A stretch of DNA of 32,892 bases. Source: a virus. The DNA lies in the IMG/VR virus record IMGVR_UViG_3300042569_003752, positions 1 to 32,892 of that record. One strand, written 5' to 3'. The notes under the pieces were generated by a model. That model did not search any database. It was given only the letters and a program-made list of their open reading frames with translations, and was not told where the DNA came from. Shown in pieces: positions 1,371-19,616 of this stretch; position 1 is the first letter of the stretch, and each line of letters starts with the position of its first letter. Position numbers and translations under genes: made by a program.

Positions 1371-1536
1371 CCTCGCGCCACAAACCGTGCCACGCCCGCG
1401 CGTCTCGTCCCACTCGCGGGTCCTCCCGCCGGGGGGGCACCCATCGGGCAGCCGCAGACCGAGATCAGTGTCTATGTGATCGGCGCGGAATATTCTCACT
1501 TTTGTTTTGTTTCCCCGTTTCCTCTCTGTAATCCGC
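1371..1536. other. Non-coding gap before terminase; possible cos region
   Basis: 166 bases without a convincing gene, directly upstream of the small terminase gene, the position cos has in lambda. It contains a short hairpin GCGGG-tcct-CCCGC (1416-1429), a G7 run right after it, a dyad GATCA-N9-TGATC (1463-1481), and then an AT/pyrimidine-rich stretch (about 1489-1526). A G/C-rich block followed by an AT-rich stretch before Nu1 resembles the arrangement around lambda cos, but no cos sequence can be identified by eye. It may also hold the late promoter; I found no clear -35/-10 pair. Confidence 0.3.
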
Positions 1537-2103
1537 GTGGCGAAAGGAAAGCAACCAGCCGAACCCGCTGCATCTGGCACCACTTCGGGCGGACAAAACC
1601 GCCTGCGGGTGAATGCCGGGGAAATGGCGTCGTTGCTTGGCGTAACTCGCCCAACGATTGCCAAGTGGGTAGACCAGGGCGCCCCGTGCGAATCGCGCGG
1701 GCGCCCGGGCGTCTCCGCTGAATTCGATGCGCCGAAGTTCATCGCGTGGTGGAGAGAGACTGTGCTCGCGCAAAAGGAGGACAAACCCGAAAAGCTCTAC
1801 GAACGGGAGCAGCTGGCCGACATCGAGCTGAAGGAGCTGAAGCTTCGGAAGGAGCGCAGCGAGCTCGTTGAGCGTCGTGCAGCAGTCAGCGTGATCCGAT
1901 CACTGCACACGCAGCTCGCAAACGTGTTGCGCCAAGGGCCGCGTCGGTTTGCTCACCGGCTGGTCTCACTGCCGGACACCGCGGCGGCCGTGCAGGCCGC
2001 TTCCGAGATCGCGGAAGATCAGATCAAGGATCTGCGGCTACCCGAGGCATGGCGCGCCATCACGGAGACGGCAGAGCAGTCTGAGCTCGAGGCCTCGGTA
2101 TGA
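1537..2103 (+). CDS. terS: Terminase small subunit, Nu1-like
   Basis: About 188 residues. Small terminase subunits bind the packaging site and recruit the large subunit. Residues about 26-70 form an Nu1-type HTH (NAGEMASLLGVTRPTIAKWV) followed by DQGAPCESRGRPG and FDAPKFIAWW, the usual Nu1/TerS N-terminal layout. A long charged helix follows (EREQLADIELKELKLRKERS), typical of the oligomerisation region. I choose the GTG at 1537 (VAKGKQPA); a TTG at 1507 is possible but adds a pyrimidine-encoded leader, and the ATG at 1624 would cut the HTH. No strong ribosome-binding site is visible. The stop overlaps the large subunit ATG at 2100-2103. Confidence 0.85.
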   Translation: MAKGKQPAEPAASGTTSGGQNRLRVNAGEMASLLGVTRPTIAKWVDQGAPCESRGRPGVSAEFDAPKFIAWWRETVLAQKEDKPEKLYEREQLADIELKELKLRKERSELVERRAAVSVIRSLHTQLANVLRQGPRRFAHRLVSLPDTAAAVQAASEIAEDQIKDLRLPEAWRAITETAEQSELEASV

Positions 2104-4064
2104 CGGCTCTTCCGGCACTGTCCTACGAGACCAGCGTCTCGGAGCTGCTCGCCGATGTTCAGCGTGAGGCGGCGACGGCATACGCACCGCGCACGCCGCT
2201 CTCAATCGCGGCGTGGGCTGAAGAGCATCGCGTGCTGCCCAGCTCGAGCAGCTCCGAGGGCGGACGGTTCCGGAACGACCGCATCCCCTACCTGAAGGGG
2301 ATCATGGACGCGCTTACAGACCCGCGGATTCAAACCGTTGTTGTGATGAAGGGCGCCCAGGTTGCCGGTACCACCATCGGCGAGAACTGGGTGGGCTGGA
2401 CCATGGACGAGGCGCCGGCGCCGATGCTGTCGGTATGGCCTACAGAGAAGCTGCTCCGCAGGTGGTCCATGACGCGTCTCGATCCCATGATCGATGAGAC
2501 ACCCCGGCTGGCACGACTGTTCGATCGGTCTGGCCTGCGTGACTCAAATGACGCGATCGCGCACAAGGAGTTCCCCAACGGTACGCTGGACCTCCTGACG
2601 GCCCGCTCCTCGTCGGACCTCCGATCGATCTCTGCAGCGCGCATCTGGTTCTCAGAGGTGGACAACATCATCGCAGAGCTCAGCGAGGATGGTGATCCCA
2701 TCGAACTCGCGCGCTCGCGTGGTGAGACGTTCTGGGACTACAAGGAGTACTTCGAATCAACGCCGACGGTGTCCGGCTCTTCTCGCATCTACGACGAGCT
2801 GACTCGATCGACATGGAACGACTGGTACATGCCCTGCCCTCACTGCGAGCACGAGCAGGTGCTGCGCTGGCGAGACGGTATGGAGGATGGAGACGACAAC
2901 AGCAGCGGCGACGCACGTTTTGTTTGGGACAAGGACTCCGCTGGCGAGGTGGTACCCGGTACGGTGTCGTACGTCTGCGAGGAATGCGCATGCCTGATCA
3001 GCGAGTGGGAGAAGAGCAGAATGCTCGCGAAAGGTGAATGGCGGCCGCGTCATGCCGGTCGGCTTGCTGAGGGATTTCACATTCCCGCGTTCATCTCGCC
3101 GCTGATCTCGTGGACGCGTATCGCCCAGCGCTTCTCCAGAGCGGTGCGCTCGCCGGCGAAGATGCGCACCTTCGTCAACAACATCTGCGGACTGCCTTAT
3201 GCTGAGAAGTCTTCGGCGGTCAGCTCGAGCTTCCTGCAGCAGCGTGCAGAGGTGTACCGCGCTCAGGTCCCGAAGGGCGTCCGTCTTCTCACCTGTGGCG
3301 GCGACGTGCAAGGTGACAGCGTGCACCTCACCGTCTGGGGATTCGGCGCCGGCGAGCAGTCATGGGTCATCGATTGGAAGATCATCGAAGGCGACCCAGC
3401 GCTCGAGAAGACGTGGCGCGAGGTCAGCGCGTACCTACAGCAAGGCTTCACCGACGAGGCGGGAAGATCTCGCTATATCGCGGCCACGTGCATCGATGCG
3501 AAGTACCAGACCGGACACGTGCATCGCTTCGCACGACGCTTCGTGGGCCCAAACGGCGCGAAGGTGATCCCGATTCAGGGTAAGGAAGGCCGCGGGCGAC
3601 CGGTGATCGCAGATCCACCGAAGGAGACGCGACGTCGGAGCGGCAAGAACATCCGCTCCCGAATCGTCGGCATCGACACGGTAAAGGACATGTTCTTCGG
3701 ACGGCTGATCGTAAAGGAGCGCGGCCCCGAATTCGTGAACTTCCCGGCGGGGCTCGATGCCGCGTTCTTCCTGCAGCTCACGGCAGAGGAGCTGAAGACA
3801 GAGTACCGGAATCGGCGCCCGATTCGCGTATGGCGAAAGAAGGCGAAGGATCTTGCCAACGAAGTACTAGACACCACGGTGTACGCGTATGCGGCTCTAG
3901 TCTCGCTAGGCAGCCGTGTTCTGCAGGATCTCGCAAAACTCGCAGCGGCGGAATCGGCAGAGGTGGTCAGTGTGCTGACCAGTCCTCCTCATGCCGTCAC
4001 CGCGTCACAAGCACCGCCTCGCTCACGCACCCGCCCTCGTGTCGTCTCGAAGGGCGTGTACTGA
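2100..4064 (+). CDS. terL: Terminase large subunit, lambda gpA family
   Basis: 654 residues, close to lambda gpA (641). It is the ATP-driven DNA translocase and cos endonuclease that docks on the portal. The ATPase half has a degenerate Walker A (KGAQVAGTT, 84-92) and a Walker B-like ARIWFSEVD (180-188). A zinc ribbon follows with Cys246/Cys249 and Cys293/Cys296. The RNase H-like nuclease starts at CGGDVQGD, with Asp402 as first metal ligand, matching the known lambda catalytic position near residue 401; CIDAKY is a later acidic motif. The protein ends with a basic Pro/Ser/Arg-rich tail, SRTRPRVVSKGVY, which reappears in the next gene. TGATG couples it to that gene. Confidence 0.96.
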   Translation: MTALPALSYETSVSELLADVQREAATAYAPRTPLSIAAWAEEHRVLPSSSSSEGGRFRNDRIPYLKGIMDALTDPRIQTVVVMKGAQVAGTTIGENWVGWTMDEAPAPMLSVWPTEKLLRRWSMTRLDPMIDETPRLARLFDRSGLRDSNDAIAHKEFPNGTLDLLTARSSSDLRSISAARIWFSEVDNIIAELSEDGDPIELARSRGETFWDYKEYFESTPTVSGSSRIYDELTRSTWNDWYMPCPHCEHEQVLRWRDGMEDGDDNSSGDARFVWDKDSAGEVVPGTVSYVCEECACLISEWEKSRMLAKGEWRPRHAGRLAEGFHIPAFISPLISWTRIAQRFSRAVRSPAKMRTFVNNICGLPYAEKSSAVSSSFLQQRAEVYRAQVPKGVRLLTCGGDVQGDSVHLTVWGFGAGEQSWVIDWKIIEGDPALEKTWREVSAYLQQGFTDEAGRSRYIAATCIDAKYQTGHVHRFARRFVGPNGAKVIPIQGKEGRGRPVIADPPKETRRRSGKNIRSRIVGIDTVKDMFFGRLIVKERGPEFVNFPAGLDAAFFLQLTAEELKTEYRNRRPIRVWRKKAKDLANEVLDTTVYAYAALVSLGSRVLQDLAKLAAAESAEVVSVLTSPPHAVTASQAPPRSRTRPRVVSKGVY

Positions 4065-4432
4065 TGCAGTTCGAGATCCCGATCTTTCGTCAGATTCTGA
4101 GCGATACGAAGGTGAGCCCGCGCGAGCTGCAGGTCTTTCGGGCGGCCATCGAGTATCTCGACGTCGTCGAAGCGCGTGTCCTGAAACTGCTGGTCATCGA
4201 GCAGCACTTGGACCTTGATCGAGCTGCCGTCTCGCGGGCACTCACTAGTCTCGTCGAGCAGGGATACCTCTGCCGCACCGCGCAGCACGGTGGCCCTGCG
4301 CTTCTCAGGGTTCCCCTCTCGCGCCATGAGTGTGCCCGAAGTGACGATTCGGACAGTTCCGTGGATGATTCGCAGCTCTCTGGAGCGGGGCGGCGCGTAC
4401 GTCCGCGAGTCGTGAGCAGGGGGGTGTTGTGA
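4064..4432 (+). CDS. Small winged-helix protein with terminase-like C-terminal tail
   Basis: 122 residues, inserted between the large terminase and the gpW-like gene. Residues about 30-85 form a MarR-like winged helix: EARVLKLLVIEQHLDLDRAA, then SRALTSLVEQGYLCR and a short wing. A Ser/Asp-rich linker (SDDSDSSVDDS) leads to the tail GRRVRPRVVSRGVL, which matches the last residues of the large terminase (SRTRPRVVSKGVY). The start ATG overlaps the terminase stop by one base. Function is unknown; the shared tail suggests that both proteins bind the same partner, possibly the portal or prohead. The stop codon lies inside a 24-base DNA repeat (4419-4442), so it may regulate its own transcript. Confidence 0.75.
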   Translation: MQFEIPIFRQILSDTKVSPRELQVFRAAIEYLDVVEARVLKLLVIEQHLDLDRAAVSRALTSLVEQGYLCRTAQHGGPALLRVPLSRHECARSDDSDSSVDDSQLSGAGRRVRPRVVSRGVL

Positions 4433-4442
4433 AAACGACAAC
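4419..4442 (+). repeat. 24-bp direct repeat, copy 1, with hairpin
   Basis: GGGGGG-TGTTGT-gaaaacg-ACAAC; copy 2 at 4504-4527 differs at one base (G4431 versus A). Copy 1 also contains a 7-bp inverted repeat GTGTTGT-gaaaacg-ACAACAC (4424-4444). The stop TGA of the winged-helix gene (4430-4432) lies inside it. It could be an operator for that protein, an mRNA structure, or the scar of a duplication. Confidence 0.7.
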
Positions 4443-4492
4443 ACTTCGGAAACTCGTGCCAATCCCATCTATAAAGCGACCGACGGTTTTTG

Positions 4493-4509
4493 CCCCCTTT
4501 TAAGGGGGG
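4493..4509. repeat. CCCCCTT-TT-AAGGGGG inverted repeat
   Basis: A perfect 7-bp inverted repeat with a 2-base centre, immediately 5' of repeat copy 2. There is a T5 run just before it on the plus strand, which reads as A5 after the stem on the minus strand, so it is not a standard rho-independent terminator in the rightward direction. It may be a processing hairpin or an operator. Confidence 0.5.
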
Positions 4510-4527
4510 TGTTGTAAAAACGACAAC
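4504..4527 (+). repeat. 24-bp direct repeat, copy 2
   Basis: GGGGGG-TGTTGT-aaaaacg-ACAAC, 85 bases downstream of copy 1 and identical except for one base. It again encodes RGVL-stop in one frame (TAA at 4515-4517). It is followed by an inverted repeat CAACCAG-N15-CTGGTTG (4524-4552). The 138-base gap 4433-4570 holds only these repeats and the start region of the next gene. Confidence 0.7.
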
Positions 4528-4570
4528 CAGTCAGAAGGCGTAAGTCTGGTTGCGTTCCTAGTGTGCGCGT

Positions 4571-4801
4571 GTGACCACTACTCGCGCAGCCCGCATCGCA
4601 GAACTCGAAACGGACGTTGCGTCCGTTCGAGATGCCATCCGCCGCATCGTCTCCGGTGGCCAGGCGTATTCCGCCGAAGGTCGCGCGATGACTCGTGCGG
4701 ATCTCAAGAGCCTTCGCGAGCTGGAGAAGGACTACGCCGACGAGCTGGCTCGCCTGGTTCGCGGCACGCGCACTCGCATTTACGGCGTGGTCCACCGGTG
4801 A
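4571..4801 (+). CDS. Head-tail joining protein, gpW-like
   Basis: 76 residues from a GTG start. Length, charge pattern and position between terminase and portal match lambda gpW (68 residues), a small head-completion protein that plugs the portal and forms part of the tail docking site. Visible features are an N-terminal helix (RIAELETDVASVRDAIRRIV), a Gly-rich turn with a short strand (SGGQAYSAEGRAM), a second charged helix (LKSLRELEKDYADELARLV), and a basic C-terminal end (RGTRTRIYGVVHR). This helix-hairpin-helix order fits the gpW fold. The stop overlaps the GTG start of the portal gene (GTGA at 4798-4801). No strong ribosome-binding site is seen. Confidence 0.7.
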   Translation: MTTTRAARIAELETDVASVRDAIRRIVSGGQAYSAEGRAMTRADLKSLRELEKDYADELARLVRGTRTRIYGVVHR

Positions 4802-6396
4802 AGCGCCACACCCGCGCTGCACTGCCTCGCCTGCAGCAGGCGAAGAAGCCGAAAGCACGGGCATTCTTCGGCCGCGGTGGCTACGAGGGCGCCCGCACTG
4901 ATGTCCGCGAGCTGATGGCGTGGCTGCCCGGGTTGGGATCCCCGGATCAAGACATCCTCGGTGACCTGCCAGCGCTCAGGGCACGCACCCGAGACCTCGA
5001 GCGCAATGCGCCCTTGGCGACGGGCGCTCTTCTCACTCGGCTGGACAACGTGGTCGGGGGAGGCCTCCTCCCCACGCCGCAGATCGACCGAGACTATCTC
5101 GGCCTGACAGAGCAGGAAGCGTCTGCATGGCAGCGCGATGCGATGCGCATCGTAAAGGCGGTTGCCTACTCCAAGCGATTCGACGTCGCCGGAAGGAACT
5201 CCTTCCCGCAGATGCAGCGACTGGCCCTCCGCTCCGTCCTCTCTGGCGGCGATGCGTTCGCCTTGCGCCGATATGTACCTCGGGCGGGTGATGTCCTCGC
5301 GCTGAAGATTCAGCTGCTTGAGGCGGATCGTGTCGGCAATCCGACGGGGCACATGAACACCCCAACGCTCCGCGACGGGATCGTTCTGGATCAGTACGGC
5401 GCGGCCACCGGCTTCTACATCGCGAGTCACCATCCAAGCGAAGCCGGCTTCGGGCAGGGATTCCCGAAGTACGACTTCGTGCCGGCCTATGGGTCGCGCA
5501 GCGGCCTGCCGATGGTGTTGCACATCATCGAGCAGCAGCGTGTGAATCAGACGCGTGGTGTGCCGTATCTCGCACCGGTCATTCGTCAGCTGAAGCAGCT
5601 GGATCGCTTCACTGACTCCGAGCTTGCTGCAGCGGTGATCGCCTCGTTCTTCACCGTATTCATCAAGCGCACCGGTAGCGTCGAAGACGGCAAGAGTCTG
5701 GCGGATCTTGAGGACGCCGACACGCTGCCGATCGGCGCCGGCGACAATGTGAAGCTCGGACAAGGTGCGGTCGTTGAACTGCCGGCGGGTGACGACATCA
5801 GCATCGCGAACCCCGGGCGGCCGAACGCGCAGTTCGATCCCTTCGTGAGCTCCATTTCGACGTTCATGGGCGTCGCGCTCGGCATCCCGCGCGAGCTGCT
5901 CCTGAAGCAATTCAACTCGTCCTATTCGGCGTCTCGCGCCGCATTGCAGGAAGCGTGGCGCGCATTCGATGCGCAGCAAGACTGGCTCGTTGAGACGTTC
6001 TGTCAGCCGATCTACGAGTGGATCATCTGGGAAGCCGTGCAGCGCGGTCTTCTCGTGGCGCCGGGCTTCCTCGAAGATCCGATGACGCGCATGGCTTACC
6101 TCGGTGCGATGTGGGCCGGCCCGACTGTAACGCAGCTCGATCCGCTCAAGGAAGTGAACGCCGCGATTCTACGCGTCGACGCCGGGTTCTCTACTCGAGC
6201 GTTGGAGGCGCCGCAGCTCACAGGGCAGTCGTGGGAGGCTGTGCACGAGCAGCTCGTGCGCGAGAAGAATCGCCGTGTGGCGGATGGACTCGCGCCGACG
6301 GAGATCATCACGGCTGGCCGCGGGGCCACGGTCCCGACAGACGACAACGAAACGCCGCCGGAAGGGACAACCGAGGAGACCGATGCCAAGGAATAG
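4798..6396 (+). CDS. Portal protein, lambda gpB family
   Basis: 532 residues against 533 in lambda gpB. The portal is the dodecameric ring at one capsid vertex through which DNA is pumped. Family features are the N-terminal LRARTRDLERNAPLATGALL (a common portal RxRDLxRNnplA motif), the central LRSVLSGGDAFALRRYV and QLLEADRVGNP, the Q..L.QLDRFTDSELAAAV region, and the late GIPRELLLKQFNSSYSASRAA segment of the gpB family. The acidic, Thr/Glu-rich C-terminal tail is probably disordered. The GTG start is fixed by overlap with the preceding stop. The end overlaps the protease gene by 14 bases. Confidence 0.95.
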   Translation: MKRHTRAALPRLQQAKKPKARAFFGRGGYEGARTDVRELMAWLPGLGSPDQDILGDLPALRARTRDLERNAPLATGALLTRLDNVVGGGLLPTPQIDRDYLGLTEQEASAWQRDAMRIVKAVAYSKRFDVAGRNSFPQMQRLALRSVLSGGDAFALRRYVPRAGDVLALKIQLLEADRVGNPTGHMNTPTLRDGIVLDQYGAATGFYIASHHPSEAGFGQGFPKYDFVPAYGSRSGLPMVLHIIEQQRVNQTRGVPYLAPVIRQLKQLDRFTDSELAAAVIASFFTVFIKRTGSVEDGKSLADLEDADTLPIGAGDNVKLGQGAVVELPAGDDISIANPGRPNAQFDPFVSSISTFMGVALGIPRELLLKQFNSSYSASRAALQEAWRAFDAQQDWLVETFCQPIYEWIIWEAVQRGLLVAPGFLEDPMTRMAYLGAMWAGPTVTQLDPLKEVNAAILRVDAGFSTRALEAPQLTGQSWEAVHEQLVREKNRRVADGLAPTEIITAGRGATVPTDDNETPPEGTTEETDAKE

Positions 6397-11674: not shown

Positions 11675-12559
11675 GTGATCACACCGCACGAGGATTCGCG
11701 GCGTCGGCCCAACGGCCGACGCACGACTCGGCAGTACACCGCGAAGGCGTTGCGCACCCGGTGCAACGCCCTTCGCGAGCAGCTCCTTGGCCAGCAGCTT
11801 GCGACGGCCGAGGAGCTCGCGGCGGTGTGGCCAGGCGGCCCGGAAAACGGGCTTATCGGGTTCGACGGGTGGATCGCCTGTTTCGCGCAGCTGACGCGAT
11901 TCGCGGGCCGTTTGGAGGCATCGAGCAGCGCCCAGGCCCCAGACGCCACCTTGCTCGAAAACACGGTGCGCGCGGCGGCCGCTCGGCAGCCCGTCTCGGT
12001 CACGCTTTCGATTGGTGATCGACTGGTCTATCCGAAGAGCGCCTGGGCGCTGTCGTGGCTTGACTCCTTGGATGCCATCATGCGACCTGTCGCTCGCCTC
12101 GTCACTGAGCTCGCTGACACGCAGGGTGCACCCGACGAGGAGCTACGCGGCCTCACGGCCCTGACGCAGGGCATGGCGTGCCGCACGTGGGCGTGGATTC
12201 TCTTGACGGAGGGTGTGGGCCTACCCTTCCCATCCGAGGGGGTGATCGATCCACCGGAGTTCACGGAGCACCTGCTCCCGGAAGACTACCTCGCCATCTT
12301 CGTGGCGCATCGCAAACTGCACTTCGAAGCCGTCGCGATCATGGCCGCCGCCATGCCAGACGAGGAGCGCACCGAGCGCTCACGTCTGTCGCTTTCAGGT
12401 TTCCTGAGCGGCTACGCCAGCGAGCACGGCGTCCCCCCGAGCCATCTCATGCGTCGGTGGAGCTTTCCCGAGGCCATGGCCGCCGCTGTCGCAGCCGCTG
12501 AAGCGCAGCGCGTGGCTGAGGCGAATGCCAAGGCGAAGCGCCGAGAGGGCGCCTCGTGA
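11675..12559 (+). CDS. Protein in the tail assembly chaperone position
   Basis: 294 residues from GTG 11675, lying between the tube and tape-measure genes, where siphoviruses encode the tail assembly chaperones (lambda G and GT). The C-terminal part (PEDYLAIFVAHRKLHFEAVA, then Ala/Lys-rich helices) is helical and hydrophilic like gpT. No conserved chaperone motif is recognised. In lambda the long form arises by -1 frameshifting; here the whole region is one continuous frame and I saw no convincing slippery heptamer, so a single long product is likely. The end overlaps the tape-measure GTG by four bases. Confidence 0.5.
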   Translation: MITPHEDSRRRPNGRRTTRQYTAKALRTRCNALREQLLGQQLATAEELAAVWPGGPENGLIGFDGWIACFAQLTRFAGRLEASSSAQAPDATLLENTVRAAAARQPVSVTLSIGDRLVYPKSAWALSWLDSLDAIMRPVARLVTELADTQGAPDEELRGLTALTQGMACRTWAWILLTEGVGLPFPSEGVIDPPEFTEHLLPEDYLAIFVAHRKLHFEAVAIMAAAMPDEERTERSRLSLSGFLSGYASEHGVPPSHLMRRWSFPEAMAAAVAAAEAQRVAEANAKAKRREGAS

Positions 12560-15500
12560 GCAGTCGTACTACGGAGTTCTCCGCGCAGATCACCGGTGAT
12601 GCCAACGGTGCCGTCGCGGCGTTGGAGAAGGTCAAGGTACGGGTACAAGAAACGACGAAGGCTGCAGAGACAGCCAACCAGAAGGTCGCCGGGTCGACCG
12701 ACGTGCTGGTCAAGCAGTCTGAGAAAGCGGCCAAAGGCGTGGCCTCAATCACTCAGGCGCTCTACGCCATGGAGGCTGAAGGCTCTGCTCGCGTACTCGC
12801 GCTGGGAAGCGCCGTGGGCAACTTCGCGGATCTGCTCGGTCCCGGCGGCAAGCTCGTCTCCGGTACCGCGATCGTCGCCTCGTCCATCGTGGCGCTGTTT
12901 CTCCAGGCAAAGGAGAAGGCTGCCGAGGCCACGAAGGCGATGGAGGACGACATCAAGCGGCTGGTGAATGCGGCGGATTTCGCCACCATCACCAAGCGCC
13001 TACAGGAAATCGAGCGTGGGACCGCTGGCGAGGGCTTCACCGACGGTCGTAGCGCCATTCGTGAGCGCATCAGGCAGCTCACGGACGAAGCCAGTGCCGT
13101 CGGAAAGTCGTCACGATTCTACCGCGAACGGCAGTCCGCCATCATCGAAGAGAAAAAGAAGCTCAACGAGCTGAACGCGGAGTACGACCGCTACTTCAAG
13201 GCGCTGACTGATCCCAAGAATGCCCCGGCGGCGAGCCGCGGACTCGCAGGGCAGCCGATTGTCGCGACTGCTGATAGCATCGAGAAGACGACGCGCGAAG
13301 CGAACAAGTCGAAGGAAGCGCTCGATCGCGCCGCCAAGGCCTTCGATGAGGCGTTCGCCGCCAGTCTGCTCGGCACCGCAGCCGCGATCGAAGAGGCGGA
13401 GCGCGCGATCGAGGAGCGCCAGGCCAAGCTGCAGAAGGCGCTCGCCGACGAATCGGCGCTTCGTCGGACGAATAACGAGGAAACGCAGCGTGAGATCGCC
13501 GCCCTTCTCGAGGGCGCTGGGGCCTACGAACGCTATCTCATCGTTCAGGCGCAGGCGGCCGCAGTGCTCGACGCGGAGCAGCGGGCCAAAGAAGCGAACA
13601 TCACACTCACCGAAGAGCAGATCCAGAAGATTCGCGAGGAGATCGCGGACCGTCTGCGACTGCAGAAGGTGCAGGAGGCCCTCAAGAGCCTCGGTGGCCA
13701 GAACCCATTCAGCCTCCCCACCAAGGAGACCTTCGACGGTGTTGGTCGACTTGCCGACGACATGTCTCGTGCGGCCAGCGCGGCATCGGGTATCGCGGCC
13801 GCGTTCGGCGACGCCGGCCGCCGGATGGCAGGCATCCTGTCGCAGTCAGCGAACCTGCTCACGAATCTGAACCGTGTGCAGCGTGCCGGCATCTTCACCG
13901 ACGCCAGCGGGCAGGAACAGAACGTCGGCGCCGTCGGCGCGCTTAGGGGGGCTGCCGGATCAGCTGGTACCACGGCGGCCGTCACCGGCCTTCTCGGCGC
14001 GTTCGGCGCCGGCGTGGGCATCATCAGCGCGTGGAACTCGTCGGCCAAAGCCGCCGCCGATCAAGCAAAGGCGACCGCCGTAGCCTTGCGCGAACTCGGG
14101 CAGTCGGCCAAAGCCTCTGTACGAAACATCGAGCTGCAGGCGACTGGTACTCCGCTCGAGCGTGAACTCGCCGGTCTGCAGACACAGTTCCGCGGAATCA
14201 TCACGTCGCTGCTGGCCGCCGGCGCCCCTCGCGTGGCGGGACTCGATCAGCGCACCGCGGTCTCCACGAGGCCCACGGCGGAAGACGTCGAGAAGGCCAT
14301 TGCTGCGTACGATAAGCTCGTCGCGGCCGCGCTTCGCGCCGCCGAGTTTGCGGCACGCCAAGGTGAGCTCGAAGACGATGCACGCCTGTTGGCCGCGCAG
14401 GGGCAGACCGCAGCCGCCGCCGCGATCCGTCAGCTGGCCGCGAACGAGAAAGAGCTCGAGGAGGCGCGGCTGTCTGGCGCCGATGTCGCCAAGAAGGTGG
14501 CGATTCAAGAGGCCGAGGCCGCACAGCGTGAAGCGGAGCGCCTCCGCAAGCAGCAGAGTGTCGCCAGTGATGTCGCCGGACGTCGCGCGTCACTCAACGG
14601 CGACGAGCGCGGTGCGTTCGTGCAGCGCCAAACGTCGTTCTCCAACAGCGCACTGGCAGAAGCGCAGGCGCTGTTCGATGCGGGTACCATCACCGCGGAA
14701 CTCTTCGCCGAGCTGAAGGACGTCATCGGTGACGAGCTCGTTGACGCCATCGCCGATTTCGATGCGGCTGCGGCGCTCGCCGCGAAGCGAGTGCAGGATA
14801 ACATCGCGGTGCGCACCTTGGAGGCGCAGGGTCGTGGCGAGGAAGCGGCGGCGCTGCGCAAGCGGCTGGAGAACGAGGAAGAGCTGCGGAATGCCGCCGA
14901 CGAGGCGACCCGCGAACAGCTTCGCCAGCTGCAGGCGCTTGAGGCTGCATCGATCGCGGCTGCAGAGGCGTTGGAGGCAGCCGCTGAAGCGGCCGCAGAG
15001 GCGATTGAGACCGCACGCGCTGCCCGTGAAGCGAGCCGCTCAGGAGCCCGCAATCGGGTGTCGCTGTTCGACCTCACCGGCACCGAAGCGTTCACGACGA
15101 CGCTGCAGGGGTTTGGCACGGCATTTTCGAATCTGTTCAGCGCCTTCGACCTCGACACGCTGGGGGGCATCGAGGGAGCGAAGGAGACGCTGCGCGGCGT
15201 GTTCGGTGAGCTCGACAAACTCAGTGACGCCGAGATCCTGACGCGGTTCGGGATGACCCGCGAGGAAGTCGTCTCGGCGCTCCTCGACACCGACTCGGGT
15301 CTCGACGGTCTGGCCACGGCGTTGGGTGACGTTGCCGCAGCGGCGCGACAGGCCGCACAGGAAGCCGCCGAGTTCTCGGCGGCGGTCTCTCAGGACTTCC
15401 TCCGCTCGCAGGGCCGTGGGCGCGAAGCGGACATTGCCGCCGCGACGGCAAAGCGCGACGATCGCTTGCGCCAAGCGAGCAGCCTTGGGCTCGGCAAATC

Positions 15501-16005
15501 GGTACTCGCGCAGATCGAAGCGATCTATCAGGCCGATCTTGCGGAGATCAATGCACGCTACGCGACGGCCGCGACGGCGGCCGCAGCGGCGGTACCTGCT
15601 GGTATCGATTCGTCGAGTTCACCCTCTTCGGCGCGTGCTGGGCGCGGCAATGCCACCAGTCTGACGCAGGACTTCGGTGGCTTGTCTGAGATCACCGGGC
15701 AGTCACTCGCAGGGCTGCTGCGAGAGGTGGCGATCAACACGTCGCGTGACGGCGCGATTGTCGACGCGATCATCGGTCGCGGCCCGACGCCCTCGCTGTC
15801 GTCGTTGTCATTCCCCTCGTTCGCTGGCGGAGCCGGCGGCGCGGCCGTGATGATTGGACCGATCACTGTGAACATCGGCAGCATGTCCCCTGGCGCGCTG
15901 TCTCCCGTTGAAGCTGCGCGCGAGGTGACGCAGCAGATCACGCGTGAGCTGGGGCGCATCGCGTCGTCGGAAGCACGCTTCCTCGGCTCAGCGAGGCGCG
16001 CATGA
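12556..16005 (+). CDS. Tape measure protein
   Basis: 1149 residues from a GTG overlapping the previous stop. It sets tail length and is ejected with the DNA. The N-terminus (SAQITGDANGAVAALEKVKV) is the usual tape-measure beginning. A hydrophobic stretch (TAIVASSIVALFLQAKEKAA, about 105-125) and a Gly/Ala-rich membrane-like stretch (GTTAAVTGLLGAFGAGVGII, about 470-490) are followed by very long Ala/Glu/Lys/Arg helices. A repeated unit (L..QG...AAA.R...) occurs three times, at about residues 611, 755 and 948. The C-terminus ends in short strands, with an ATGA overlap to the next gene. The protease-resistant helical design fits the family strongly. Confidence 0.95.
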   Translation: MSSRTTEFSAQITGDANGAVAALEKVKVRVQETTKAAETANQKVAGSTDVLVKQSEKAAKGVASITQALYAMEAEGSARVLALGSAVGNFADLLGPGGKLVSGTAIVASSIVALFLQAKEKAAEATKAMEDDIKRLVNAADFATITKRLQEIERGTAGEGFTDGRSAIRERIRQLTDEASAVGKSSRFYRERQSAIIEEKKKLNELNAEYDRYFKALTDPKNAPAASRGLAGQPIVATADSIEKTTREANKSKEALDRAAKAFDEAFAASLLGTAAAIEEAERAIEERQAKLQKALADESALRRTNNEETQREIAALLEGAGAYERYLIVQAQAAAVLDAEQRAKEANITLTEEQIQKIREEIADRLRLQKVQEALKSLGGQNPFSLPTKETFDGVGRLADDMSRAASAASGIAAAFGDAGRRMAGILSQSANLLTNLNRVQRAGIFTDASGQEQNVGAVGALRGAAGSAGTTAAVTGLLGAFGAGVGIISAWNSSAKAAADQAKATAVALRELGQSAKASVRNIELQATGTPLERELAGLQTQFRGIITSLLAAGAPRVAGLDQRTAVSTRPTAEDVEKAIAAYDKLVAAALRAAEFAARQGELEDDARLLAAQGQTAAAAAIRQLAANEKELEEARLSGADVAKKVAIQEAEAAQREAERLRKQQSVASDVAGRRASLNGDERGAFVQRQTSFSNSALAEAQALFDAGTITAELFAELKDVIGDELVDAIADFDAAAALAAKRVQDNIAVRTLEAQGRGEEAAALRKRLENEEELRNAADEATREQLRQLQALEAASIAAAEALEAAAEAAAEAIETARAAREASRSGARNRVSLFDLTGTEAFTTTLQGFGTAFSNLFSAFDLDTLGGIEGAKETLRGVFGELDKLSDAEILTRFGMTREEVVSALLDTDSGLDGLATALGDVAAAARQAAQEAAEFSAAVSQDFLRSQGRGREADIAAATAKRDDRLRQASSLGLGKSVLAQIEAIYQADLAEINARYATAATAAAAAVPAGIDSSSSPSSARAGRGNATSLTQDFGGLSEITGQSLAGLLREVAINTSRDGAIVDAIIGRGPTPSLSSLSFPSFAGGAGGAAVMIGPITVNIGSMSPGALSPVEAAREVTQQITRELGRIASSEARFLGSARRA

Positions 16006-19000
16006 GCTGGCAGCTCACCCGCATGTCGACGTGGCTCTCGGCCGGTGGCATCGCCGTGGCCGACCTTGGCCCCTGTGATCCGGCACGCAGCGGTATTCGA
16101 TTCGAGCTGGGAGCGCGTGGTGAAGCCCGGTTCGAACTGCACACGGATATCGCCTACGATCTCGTGGCAAACCGTGCCGTGATTCGCGTCGATCTTGAGG
16201 ACGGGACGTGGCACGAGTTCCGAGTCAACCGCCGCGGCAGGCCGACACGCGGGGTGGAGGCCAATCGGTGCAGCGTGGTCGCGAAGCCACGCATCTTCGA
16301 CCTGAGCGACAGCGACTTGGTGCGTGAAGTGCTCGGTGGTCGAAGCATCTACACCTTCAATCTCAACCTCACGATCGCGGCCGCCTGGGCACGGCTCGTG
16401 GCTCCCAACGCCAACACGGATCGTCTGGCCGGCATCGCCCTTGGTGAGGTGGAGTACCCGGCGTCGGTTCCGCTTACCTTCACGCGCTGGACTTACGGGC
16501 AGCTCCTGCAAGGCTGGCTCGATGCGACCAAGCTCGAGCTGCAGTGGCGCCGGTCCGCCGACGGGATGACGGAGTACGTCGATTTCCTTGAGCAGGTCGG
16601 CAGCAGCGCCCCGACGGTCCCGCTGTTCTACGGTGGCCAGCTGCAGGATCATGGGCTCGAGGAGGACTACGACGCGTTGTTCACGGTGGCGCGGATCGTC
16701 GGAGAACCGCCGTCAGCCGACAGCGAAGCCGCGACCATCGGCGAGAACGCGTGGCGGGTCGCGAGCTCGCGCCCCTTGGGCGGCGGTCGCTTCGCGGTCG
16801 AACTGCGGGAGTTGTATGGATCCCGCTCGCCCGTGGTCCAAAACGGCCAGTTCGCCGCGCATGGCGACATCGGCCTGCCGGCGCGCTTCCTTCAGTTTGC
16901 GGACGGCATCACGCGCACCGAGATCCTTGATGCGTTCGCCGAGAACGGCGAGGTCGTCGTGGCGATGCTGCCGCCCTCTGGCGATCCACATGTGTCGATC
17001 GTCGCCGATGCCGCCGGCACGGCGCTCGAGACCATCGAGTTGCCGGACGCAGTACGCCAGTACGGATACGTGGTTGGCGATGTGCCAATCGACGGAGCTC
17101 GTGGTGAGCGCCAGTACTTGCGCAACGGTGGCCACGAGCAAGGCCTCACGGCATGGAGCGCGGTCAACGGCGGAGCCGCTGAAGAGATTCGCCGTAACGA
17201 GCTCGGGGTGACCGTGACGGCGGCCGCGGACGGAGCACGCGCCGCCGGCGTCGGCCCCGGAACACCCTTCGCGGTCCGTGGGCTCGCGCCGAACGTTGGC
17301 CGCGTTATTCGCGGCGATGAACTGCGCGTCGGTGGGGCGGTGCTGCCAATCACGGCAGATGCCATTCCGACGACGACAGGCGTGCTGACGCTCTCGCTGG
17401 GCGCGCCAGGACTGCCGGGCAACTTTCCCGATGGCCACCCGTTCTTGCTTCTGCGGCGCGAGGTGCGGACATGGACGCTCGACGGTGAGCATTCGGTACT
17501 GGCGACACGCCTACGCTTTACCGATAGCAACACAGACGGGTTGTTCGCGCTCAATGCAGGAACGCTGACCAGCACAACGGGCGGCTTCGTCACGTCGATT
17601 GGGTCGGTGCAGTACGTCGATGCGCCACTGTTGGCCGGTCGGTTGCGTGTGTTCTCGCCGTTCTCTTTCGCCTTGAATCTTGGCGCGTCAAGTGCTGCTA
17701 CTGACACCGCCTTCGTCAGATTCCTAAACGCTGGAATCGGTGAAACGACGGGCACCGTCAGAATCATTGCTACCAATGTGACGCCGATTATCGTCGGCAC
17801 GACGCGCATTGCGTACTTCGGGAACAATGGACAACTCATGTGCGCGCGGGTTACTGCCAACCTTGGCGGCGGCGACTTCACCATTGTACCAGAGGACGTG
17901 GCGACCTTTAACGGGTTCAACGGCGGTGGATACGATGCCGTGAACAACTGGTTTGCCATCATAGTTAGCAACGGCGTTATGGCGAGCGGGTTAACGTGGA
18001 CAGCAAGCATAACCCGCGAAACGCGCACGGTGCTCTGCAACGGTGCTGTGAACGCGGGCGCGATGTCGTTGCCGTGCAAGGCACAGGCGAACATTGCGAC
18101 CCGAGACTGGACGGCCGCGGATGCGATCACGATGAACCGCGATTTCGCGTGTACGGTAGACATCACCGCAGCGGGCAGCATCGTCGACCAGTTTGAATAC
18201 GATATCGACCTAGAAATGGACGTGTTCGTCGGCAAGAGTCACAGCATCACGTTCAACGCAGCCACTAGCACCTTTGATGAGGTCGACCCATCCGACCGGC
18301 CGAATCCGCTGTTCCTCGGCGAATGGCGTTTCGTCAGCATCGTCGGCAACACTATCAATCTTTTTAAGGCACCGAGCGATCCCGGCCTTTCGAACCCGAT
18401 GCCGACGGGCGTGCTCAATCTGGCGTGGACCCTGTCCGACACGTACGCGCTCACCGGCACCGCAAGCTGGGGCACGAACGGACGAGTAACGCTGACGCTT
18501 GCCAGTGCCATCCCTGCGGGGCGCAGCTACGCGCGCGGCTTGCCGGTCGGGTCCAGTTGGATAAGCGGCTTTCTGCGACTGCACGCGGCGGTATCAGGAG
18601 GCGCGAATACGGTCGAACTGTTCGGACACGATGCGTTCTTCTCCAACACCGCCCCAAGCTCACCATCTCGCGGTGCGCTGTATCGGGTGACCGCATCAGG
18701 TAGCACGATGCCCATCCCCGGCGACACACTGTACGCGCAGGGCACGGTCACCGCAGACGCGCTGGGTGAGGCGCTTGTCCCGCTGCAGGCGGCCAACGTC
18801 AACGTCATCGCGGACGGGGCTCCGATCACGATCACACGGCCACAGCTGGTCGCCAGTACTGAGCCGCAGACGGGGAGTGTGCTGCGCCTGTTCTGCCAAG
18901 TCGGTGGCGTGACGGGCGAGCCGTCCTCGAGTACGCCGGGATGGGGACACGAGTTGGCCCGCTTCAACGTCCCAGTCGGGAGCACACGGCAGATCACGGC

Positions 19001-19616
19001 GCTCTCGGTGTTCGGGCTCTCGGTGTTCGACTGGATGGCGCCGCAGGGGCCTGTGGTCGCTATCGTGGATAGCGCCGGCAACATCCTCGGTTGGTCCGCC
19101 CTCGGCGAGGACGGCGCCCTGATTGAGGTGGCGCCGGGCGTGGTCGCCCTGCAGACGCGTGCCGTGATCGCCACGGGCGGCCAATACACCGTGCGCGTGT
19201 ATGGCGGCAGCCCGACGAGCTACACGCGGTGGTGCGTTCATGTGCGCACGCTGCTCTTCCAAGGCGAAGCCGATGATGTGCCGTACACGCGCGAGTCCTA
19301 TGCCGCGCTGCTGCAGCTCACGGGCACGCGCGCCTTGGTCGAGGGCGCACGCCCGCGCGTGACCGACACTGTCACAGTCACCGAGTTCCTTGCGCTACAC
19401 GCGCAAGCCCTCGGCGTGTCGCCGACGCTGCTGCCCCGTATCACACTCGGAGGATTGGTGCACATCGAAGACGTCGATCGCATCGCCCGCGTGACCGCGA
19501 TGACGCGTCGATCGGGAACCAGTGACAGCGAGATCGAGCTCGGCACGGTCGGCCCTGATGGCGGCCGCTTGTTGGGCGCCACGGCACTCGCCGCCGGTAC
19601 ACGGAGGCCACGATGA
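16002..19616 (+). CDS. Large tail-tip / baseplate hub protein
   Basis: 1204 residues. The N-terminal 240 residues (MSWQLTRMSTWLSAGGIAVA, then a long strand-rich segment with RFELGARGEARFELHTDIAY) look like the hub/tail-associated protein that follows the tape measure in many siphoviruses and forms the tail tip. The middle (about 500-820) is a low-complexity beta-rich section whose DNA is visibly less GC-rich than the flanks, suggesting a separate module. The C-terminus returns to high GC (ALHAQALGVSPTLLPRITLG), including a domain with VNVIADGAPITIT. No enzymatic motif is recognised. ATGA overlaps the tape measure; the end overlaps the next ATG by four bases. Confidence 0.7.
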   Translation: MSWQLTRMSTWLSAGGIAVADLGPCDPARSGIRFELGARGEARFELHTDIAYDLVANRAVIRVDLEDGTWHEFRVNRRGRPTRGVEANRCSVVAKPRIFDLSDSDLVREVLGGRSIYTFNLNLTIAAAWARLVAPNANTDRLAGIALGEVEYPASVPLTFTRWTYGQLLQGWLDATKLELQWRRSADGMTEYVDFLEQVGSSAPTVPLFYGGQLQDHGLEEDYDALFTVARIVGEPPSADSEAATIGENAWRVASSRPLGGGRFAVELRELYGSRSPVVQNGQFAAHGDIGLPARFLQFADGITRTEILDAFAENGEVVVAMLPPSGDPHVSIVADAAGTALETIELPDAVRQYGYVVGDVPIDGARGERQYLRNGGHEQGLTAWSAVNGGAAEEIRRNELGVTVTAAADGARAAGVGPGTPFAVRGLAPNVGRVIRGDELRVGGAVLPITADAIPTTTGVLTLSLGAPGLPGNFPDGHPFLLLRREVRTWTLDGEHSVLATRLRFTDSNTDGLFALNAGTLTSTTGGFVTSIGSVQYVDAPLLAGRLRVFSPFSFALNLGASSAATDTAFVRFLNAGIGETTGTVRIIATNVTPIIVGTTRIAYFGNNGQLMCARVTANLGGGDFTIVPEDVATFNGFNGGGYDAVNNWFAIIVSNGVMASGLTWTASITRETRTVLCNGAVNAGAMSLPCKAQANIATRDWTAADAITMNRDFACTVDITAAGSIVDQFEYDIDLEMDVFVGKSHSITFNAATSTFDEVDPSDRPNPLFLGEWRFVSIVGNTINLFKAPSDPGLSNPMPTGVLNLAWTLSDTYALTGTASWGTNGRVTLTLASAIPAGRSYARGLPVGSSWISGFLRLHAAVSGGANTVELFGHDAFFSNTAPSSPSRGALYRVTASGSTMPIPGDTLYAQGTVTADALGEALVPLQAANVNVIADGAPITITRPQLVASTEPQTGSVLRLFCQVGGVTGEPSSSTPGWGHELARFNVPVGSTRQITALSVFGLSVFDWMAPQGPVVAIVDSAGNILGWSALGEDGALIEVAPGVVALQTRAVIATGGQYTVRVYGGSPTSYTRWCVHVRTLLFQGEADDVPYTRESYAALLQLTGTRALVEGARPRVTDTVTVTEFLALHAQALGVSPTLLPRITLGGLVHIEDVDRIARVTAMTRRSGTSDSEIELGTVGPDGGRLLGATALAAGTRRPR

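Follow-up and report, generated by a model that had tools for sequence, protein, structure and literature searches.

In phage lambda, the C terminus of the large terminase gpA binds the portal protein gpB (PMC3224144, Table 2), and a mutation in the portal acts as a suppressor of a gpA binding mutation (PMC2366019). The C-terminal arm of another lambda protein, gpW, docks on gpB by beta-augmentation (PMC10721106). A different route into packaging is taken by Rpp of the PICI satellites, a small satellite-encoded winged-helix protein that binds the small terminase TerS and redirects cos recognition (PMC6739421); Rpp is not known to mimic a terminase tail.

Here, we analyze a 32,892-base viral record, referred to below as the window, whose genes run in the order terS, terL, a 122-amino-acid (aa) open reading frame (ORF), gpW, portal, and further head genes. 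The TerL of the window resembles lambda gpA in belonging to the gpA family and in carrying its tail behind the nuclease domain, where gpA contacts gpB (PMC3224144; PMC2366019). Unlike in lambda, the same type of tail is also found on a predicted DNA-binding protein, and the literature searched contained no second bearer. This 122-aa protein is like gpW in being small and encoded behind terL, and gpW has a portal-docking arm (PMC10721106); unlike the gpW arrangement, gpW is here a separate gene (4571-4801), and gpW tails are generally unmatched to the TerL of the same genome. Rpp is likewise a small winged-helix protein that acts on terminase-directed packaging (PMC6739421). The predicted fold and the palindrome-like sites beside its own gene recall MarR-family regulators, from which the protein differs in scoring below the MarR_2 cutoff, in the apparent lack of long dimerization helices in its monomer model, and in its terminase-type tail.

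Terminase genes and head genes of the window

The features considered here all lie on the + strand of the window:

1416 to 1458, +, putative cos site (CGGGTCCTCCCG...ATCGGGCAGCCGCAGA), 5' of terS; cos role assigned from position
1507 to 2103, +, small terminase subunit TerS, Nu1-like (phrog_57, 2.8e-17); putative start
2100 to 4064, +, large terminase TerL, gpA family, 654 aa (phrog_15, 3.5e-201)
4023 to 4061, +, TerL C-terminal tail SRTRPRVVSKGVY, past residue 606, the end of the nuclease domain
4064 to 4432, +, 122-aa predicted winged-helix (MarR-fold) protein; start codon overlaps the terL stop (TGATG)
4391 to 4429, +, C-terminal tail RRVRPRVVSRGVL of the winged-helix protein, terminating its disordered linker
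4418 to 4444, +, repeat copy 1, operator-like, core GTTGTGAAAACGACAAC at 4426-4442; runs across the final codons and the stop codon of the winged-helix gene
4503 to 4529, +, repeat copy 2, operator-like, core GTTGTAAAAACGACAAC at 4511-4527; 85 nucleotides (nt) downstream, before gpW
4571 to 4801, +, gpW-like head-tail adaptor ending TRTRIYGVVHR (phrog_118, 1.1e-12); first gene past the repeats
4798 to 6396, +, portal protein (phrog_21, 4.4e-107)

Both gpA-type domains are confirmed in TerL (Pfam GpA_ATPase PF05876, 2.2e-72; GpA_nuclease PF20454, 1.4e-71), while TerS matches Phage_Nu1 at 1.4e-5, under the cutoff of that family. By analogy with lambda, both tails would presumably dock on the portal protein. 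The window also encodes another predicted winged-helix protein (179 aa, HTH_24) 5' of terS at 649-1188, and two very large ORFs of 1,149 and 1,204 aa at 12556-19616 that have zero matches in PHROGs.

The cos site of such phages usually lies upstream of terS. The sequence CGGGTCCTYCC...CGGG..CCGCAGA occurs 5' of terS in the window (1416-1458) and in L101, L115, L186, L189, L190, L192, L195, and L197, and is probably the cosN of Gemmatimonadota gpA-type phages. Its GGGTCCTYCC element precedes terL/terS in the window and eight further Gemmatimonadota-type loci.

A terminase-type tail on the neighboring protein

TerL ends in RTRPRVVSKGVY (to the stop at 4064, SRTRPRVVSKGVY) and the 122-aa protein in RVRPRVVSRGVL (to its stop, GRRVRPRVVSRGVL). 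The two tails have RPRVVS[KR]GV in common, which amounts to nine aligned positions that differ only by a single K/R exchange, and their codons differ at most synonymous positions. The initial annotation had described a C-terminal tail shared by the terminase and its neighbor, and both tails are indeed found there. We compared the final 14 residues of each tail by BLOSUM62 score, a scheme and length that we chose and did not tune; the pair scores 46, and the next-best among 318 six-frame ORF ends, TerL included, scores 31. None of 10,000 shuffled TerL tails reached 46. The outcome that would have spoken for chance, a match no better than expected of Arg/Ser-rich C termini, was thus not observed. 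An exact degenerate-DNA scan for the tail plus stop across 2.9 million viral contigs recovered only three, of which two are near-identical relatives and the third is a diverged one.

The diverged relative L007, in which TerL is 82% and the winged-helix protein 51% identical to that of the window, allows the tail to be compared with the remainder of the protein. Its tails read RPRVVSRGVY (TerL) and RARIVSNGVV (winged-helix protein), and the TerL tail is kept in both L006 and L007. Identity between the two winged-helix proteins amounts to 50/87 residues in the DNA-binding part, 4/23 in the linker, and 8/13 in the last 13 residues. Since the tail is kept in L007 as the linker diverges, it looks to have been kept by selection, and the earlier view of a match at the protein level, apparently selected, agrees with this pattern and with the codon differences. 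The same view had set aside a fresh DNA duplication, and the codon differences, together with the absence of any repeat that involves terL, rule out that the tail arose by such a duplication.

The 122-aa protein is predicted to be a winged helix with a disordered arm

An AlphaFold model built on an alignment of 11 homologs predicts a winged helix with high confidence (pLDDT of at least 90 at residues 11-70; mean pLDDT of the model, 79) and an arm that is disordered past about residue 96, with a pLDDT of about 50 in the tail. Outside the winged helix, the monomer model shows only short helices (6-13, 19-29, and 90-96). The top PDB neighbors are MarR, SlyA, and MexR, with modest scores and E values of only about 1e-3 to 1e-2. 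Pfam MarR_2 falls just below its threshold (E = 8e-6; 26.4 bits versus a cutoff of 27), and MarR does not reach its own (16.8 versus 24.6). The winged helix that the initial annotation had assigned to the protein beside terL is in line with this model and its neighbors.

The protein matches no TerS family; its gene follows terL, and a separate TerS is encoded at 1507-2103. A gpW adaptor is ruled out, as the fold is a winged helix and gpW is the next gene. The annotated phage collection held no homolog, and its only hit was a Haloferax winged-helix protein at E = 7.

The gene behind terL was found only in Gemmatimonadota-type loci

The best TerL relative in cellular genomes, at 45% identity, is in a Gemmatimonadetes metagenome-assembled genome (MAG) (L101) with a winged-helix gene at the same place, and the gene likewise lies behind terL in a prophage of a second Gemmatimonadota MAG (L115). 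Of 395 Gemmatimonadota genomes searched, 20 carry a gpA-type terL. A homologous ORF directly after terL occurs in 11 loci of 9 lineages in all (Gemmatimonadota prophages), and in most loci its start overlaps or abuts the terL stop. By comparison, none of about 200 other, non-Gemmatimonadota gpA-type loci has the gene. Because the gene behind terL was found only in Gemmatimonadota loci, the host of the window phage is probably a Gemmatimonadota bacterium.

A further viral scan found no new relatives, and a repeat search in the class of G021 returned nearly the same genomes. Weak, distant homologs occur in other contexts in L295, L296, and L297, none with a terminase-like tail. Judged from neighbors identified by sequence, one setting is 5' of what is probably a PBSX-like terminase, another lies within a probable cluster of head genes, and in the third two copies stand in tandem beside a probable integrase.

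Tails covary with the terminase of the same genome in most tailed lineages

The tails of TerL and of the winged-helix protein compare as follows:

Window: TerL RPRVVSKGVY, winged-helix protein RPRVVSRGVL
L195: TerL PSGMISEAVE, winged-helix protein RGGLLSEAIE
L115: TerL KASKWVGRWK, winged-helix protein AKKGWVGKWQ
L101: TerL GRRMRSGGVT, winged-helix protein RRARSVVGGWM
L194: TerL SRVRHRGIE, winged-helix protein RRQVRDSL (ambiguous)

We ranked the TerL of the same genome among 220 distinct TerL tails for similarity to each winged-helix tail. It takes first place for L195 and, in a tie with its sister, for the window, but only sixth for L115 because W-type tails are common. For L101, the TerL of the same genome is not special, and the winged-helix tail instead resembles the W-type tails of other terminases. 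Summed over the lineages, of which there are only nine, the own pairing scores 191, which 255 of 362,880 permutations equal or better. For the four clearly tailed lineages, a class separated by eye from the tail-less ones, the own pairing ranks top among the 24 possible ones, and random TerL partners match the four-lineage sum in 3 of 100,000 draws.

Control tails behave differently. None of 200 gpW tails reaches a score of 32 against the TerL of the same genome (mean own score, 12.5; mean rank, 0.43; best, 28 in L060), and none of 356 other ORF ends beside terL does so. No control tail among all 556 reaches the three best own scores of the winged-helix proteins. A general match of gpW to its own TerL tail is not supported, with none of the 200 gpW tails scoring at least 32. 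We did observe that gpW adaptors and gpA-type terminases have similar basic endings such as SKGL, SKGI, and SSGY (L060, L015, L140, L151, and L152), and that the TerL and gpW tails of L060 are alike (GRRVRLGTPV and GRRVRRQGTRV). These endings may hint, weakly overall, that both proteins use one site on the portal.

Covariation of the tail with that of the terminase had been proposed as a check, and similarity beyond chance holds in three of the four clear-tail lineages (window/L007, L195, and L115) and fails in L101. A tail absent or unrelated in relatives had been named as evidence against a meaningful match, and this is partly what we found: five loci in four lineages have the gene without a tail (L189, L190/L203, L192, and L197), L194 is ambiguous, and L101 is mismatched, while the tails of the other tailed lineages match. 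The covariation favors a shared binding partner of the winged-helix and TerL tails over convergence of Arg-rich ends. Overall, the interpretation offered in the initial annotation is partly supported.

Repeats follow the gene in three lineages

The initial annotation did not mention the operator-like repeats behind the gene, which we add here. The window has paired palindromic repeats of about 27 nt each, 85 nt apart, within the sole sizeable DNA repeat of this region (4418-4451 and 4503-4536), which is located at the 3' end of the winged-helix gene and past it and does not involve terL; no further exact copies were found within the window. In L007, the layout is the same, with copies 84 nt apart, and the palindrome is a different one, TTGCAAAT(TT/CC)GCAA. 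In L195, the first 250 nt past the gene contain TTTCGTCA five times, with copies in either orientation. In each of these three, none of 1,000 shuffles gave a direct repeat as long, and the same test detected no significant repeats in L101, L115, L189, L194, and L197. The unchanged layout and changed sequence suggest co-evolving operators of a diverging DNA-binding protein.

Neither a sigma-70 promoter nor a terminator was found at the repeats, and an Rfam scan was likewise empty. Repeat 1 of the window overlaps the last four codons of the winged-helix gene; the tail as a by-product of repeat DNA is ruled out, as the tail of L007 lies outside the repeats. The repeats are probably not a packaging start, because a conserved GGGTCCTYCC element lies upstream of terS in nine loci. 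Between the repeats, at 4492-4509, is a near-perfect palindrome, CCCCCTTTTAAGGGGG. An inverted repeat, CAACCAG...CTGGTTG, just before gpW (4524-4552) has a similar sequence in L007 from position 1926 and is possibly a leader hairpin.

A tentative model and its alternatives

Given the lambda precedents of gpA and gpW, the shared tail most likely marks a common portal site. We suggest, with confidence somewhat short of even, that the 122-aa protein is an operator-binding winged-helix protein of the late operon equipped with the portal-docking tail of the terminase. Translationally coupled to TerL, this MarR-type protein would probably bind the palindromic repeats that extend from its own stop codon to just before the head genes (gpW-portal-protease-capsid). 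Its disordered C-terminal arm would end in a mimic of the portal-docking tail and bind the same portal site as the terminase. Operator occupancy would then be tied to the supply of free portals, which, in the version we prefer, titrate the regulator off the head operon. The wider idea of a portal-sensing protein, with free portals or docked motors setting head-gene expression or the operator-bound protein handing DNA to the portal, appears doubtful to us. The sequence itself shows the shared tail, its upkeep in L007, the covariation, the overlapping start codon, and the repeats, and a model gives the winged-helix fold; binding to the repeats, binding to the portal, and an effect on head genes are proposed. 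Counting against the regulator are the four tail-less lineages, the ambiguous L194, the mismatched L101, the sixth rank in L115, the small number of lineages, the lack of a promoter or terminator at the repeats, and the lack of significant repeats in L101, L115, and the other loci tested.

The main rival to a regulator is a DNA-to-portal tether, which we regard as rather unlikely. The protein would act as a packaging helper comparable to an auxiliary small terminase, binding repeats that lie some 3 kb in from the cos-proximal end while its tail tethers the DNA to a dodecameric portal that would leave sites free beside the terminase. Co-translation with terL, a tail of the terminase type, and a repeat array beside the gene, like the iterated R sites of cosB, would all suit such a role. 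However, the usual upstream place is already taken by the Nu1-like TerS together with a conserved cos-like element, and the repeats lie about 3 kb from that element and are undetected in other lineages bearing the gene.

Other readings dispense with the portal. Overlapping genes make it easy to copy the end of terL onto its neighbor, and about half of the winged-helix lineages are without a tail, as an old, functionless duplication that then drifted would predict; such an origin is improbable given that residues are kept while synonymous positions differ, that the tail is more conserved than the linker, and that the matching tails are of three unrelated types. Quite improbable is a shared degron or host-factor tag, in which a host or phage protease or chaperone reads both tails in place of the portal, as with a ClpX-like C-terminal signal. 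Short, basic-hydrophobic, disordered C termini would suit a protease tag, but a conserved host factor should impose one motif, whereas tail types vary widely among phages of a single host phylum yet agree between the two proteins of a genome, and TerL tails vary across all 220 distinct ones. Chance convergence of Arg/Ser/Gly-rich C termini can point to the common SKG, SGG, and GxW endings of gpA-type terminases and gpW proteins; the permutations (255/362,880), the control tails (0/556 at the three best own scores), and the contrast of 46 with 31 within the window make it very improbable.

Significance

The winged-helix regulator and the portal-docking tail are each known parts, and we found no report of their combination in the open-access literature; our search there for a regulator bearing a terminase tail came up empty, and the initial annotation likewise knew of no described example. 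To our knowledge, the portal site gripped by gpA-type terminase tails, and the manner of the grip, have not been resolved. With a second natural bearer of the tail that covaries from one genome to the next, evolution would itself define the docking motif, and the winged-helix protein would serve as a small, soluble probe of that motif. If head genes are also under its control, virion assembly would be linked to transcription in tailed phages; the open-access literature searched contained no described example of such a coupling. Should the portal-sensing reading be true, capsid assembly would feed back to DNA through mimicry of the terminase tail.
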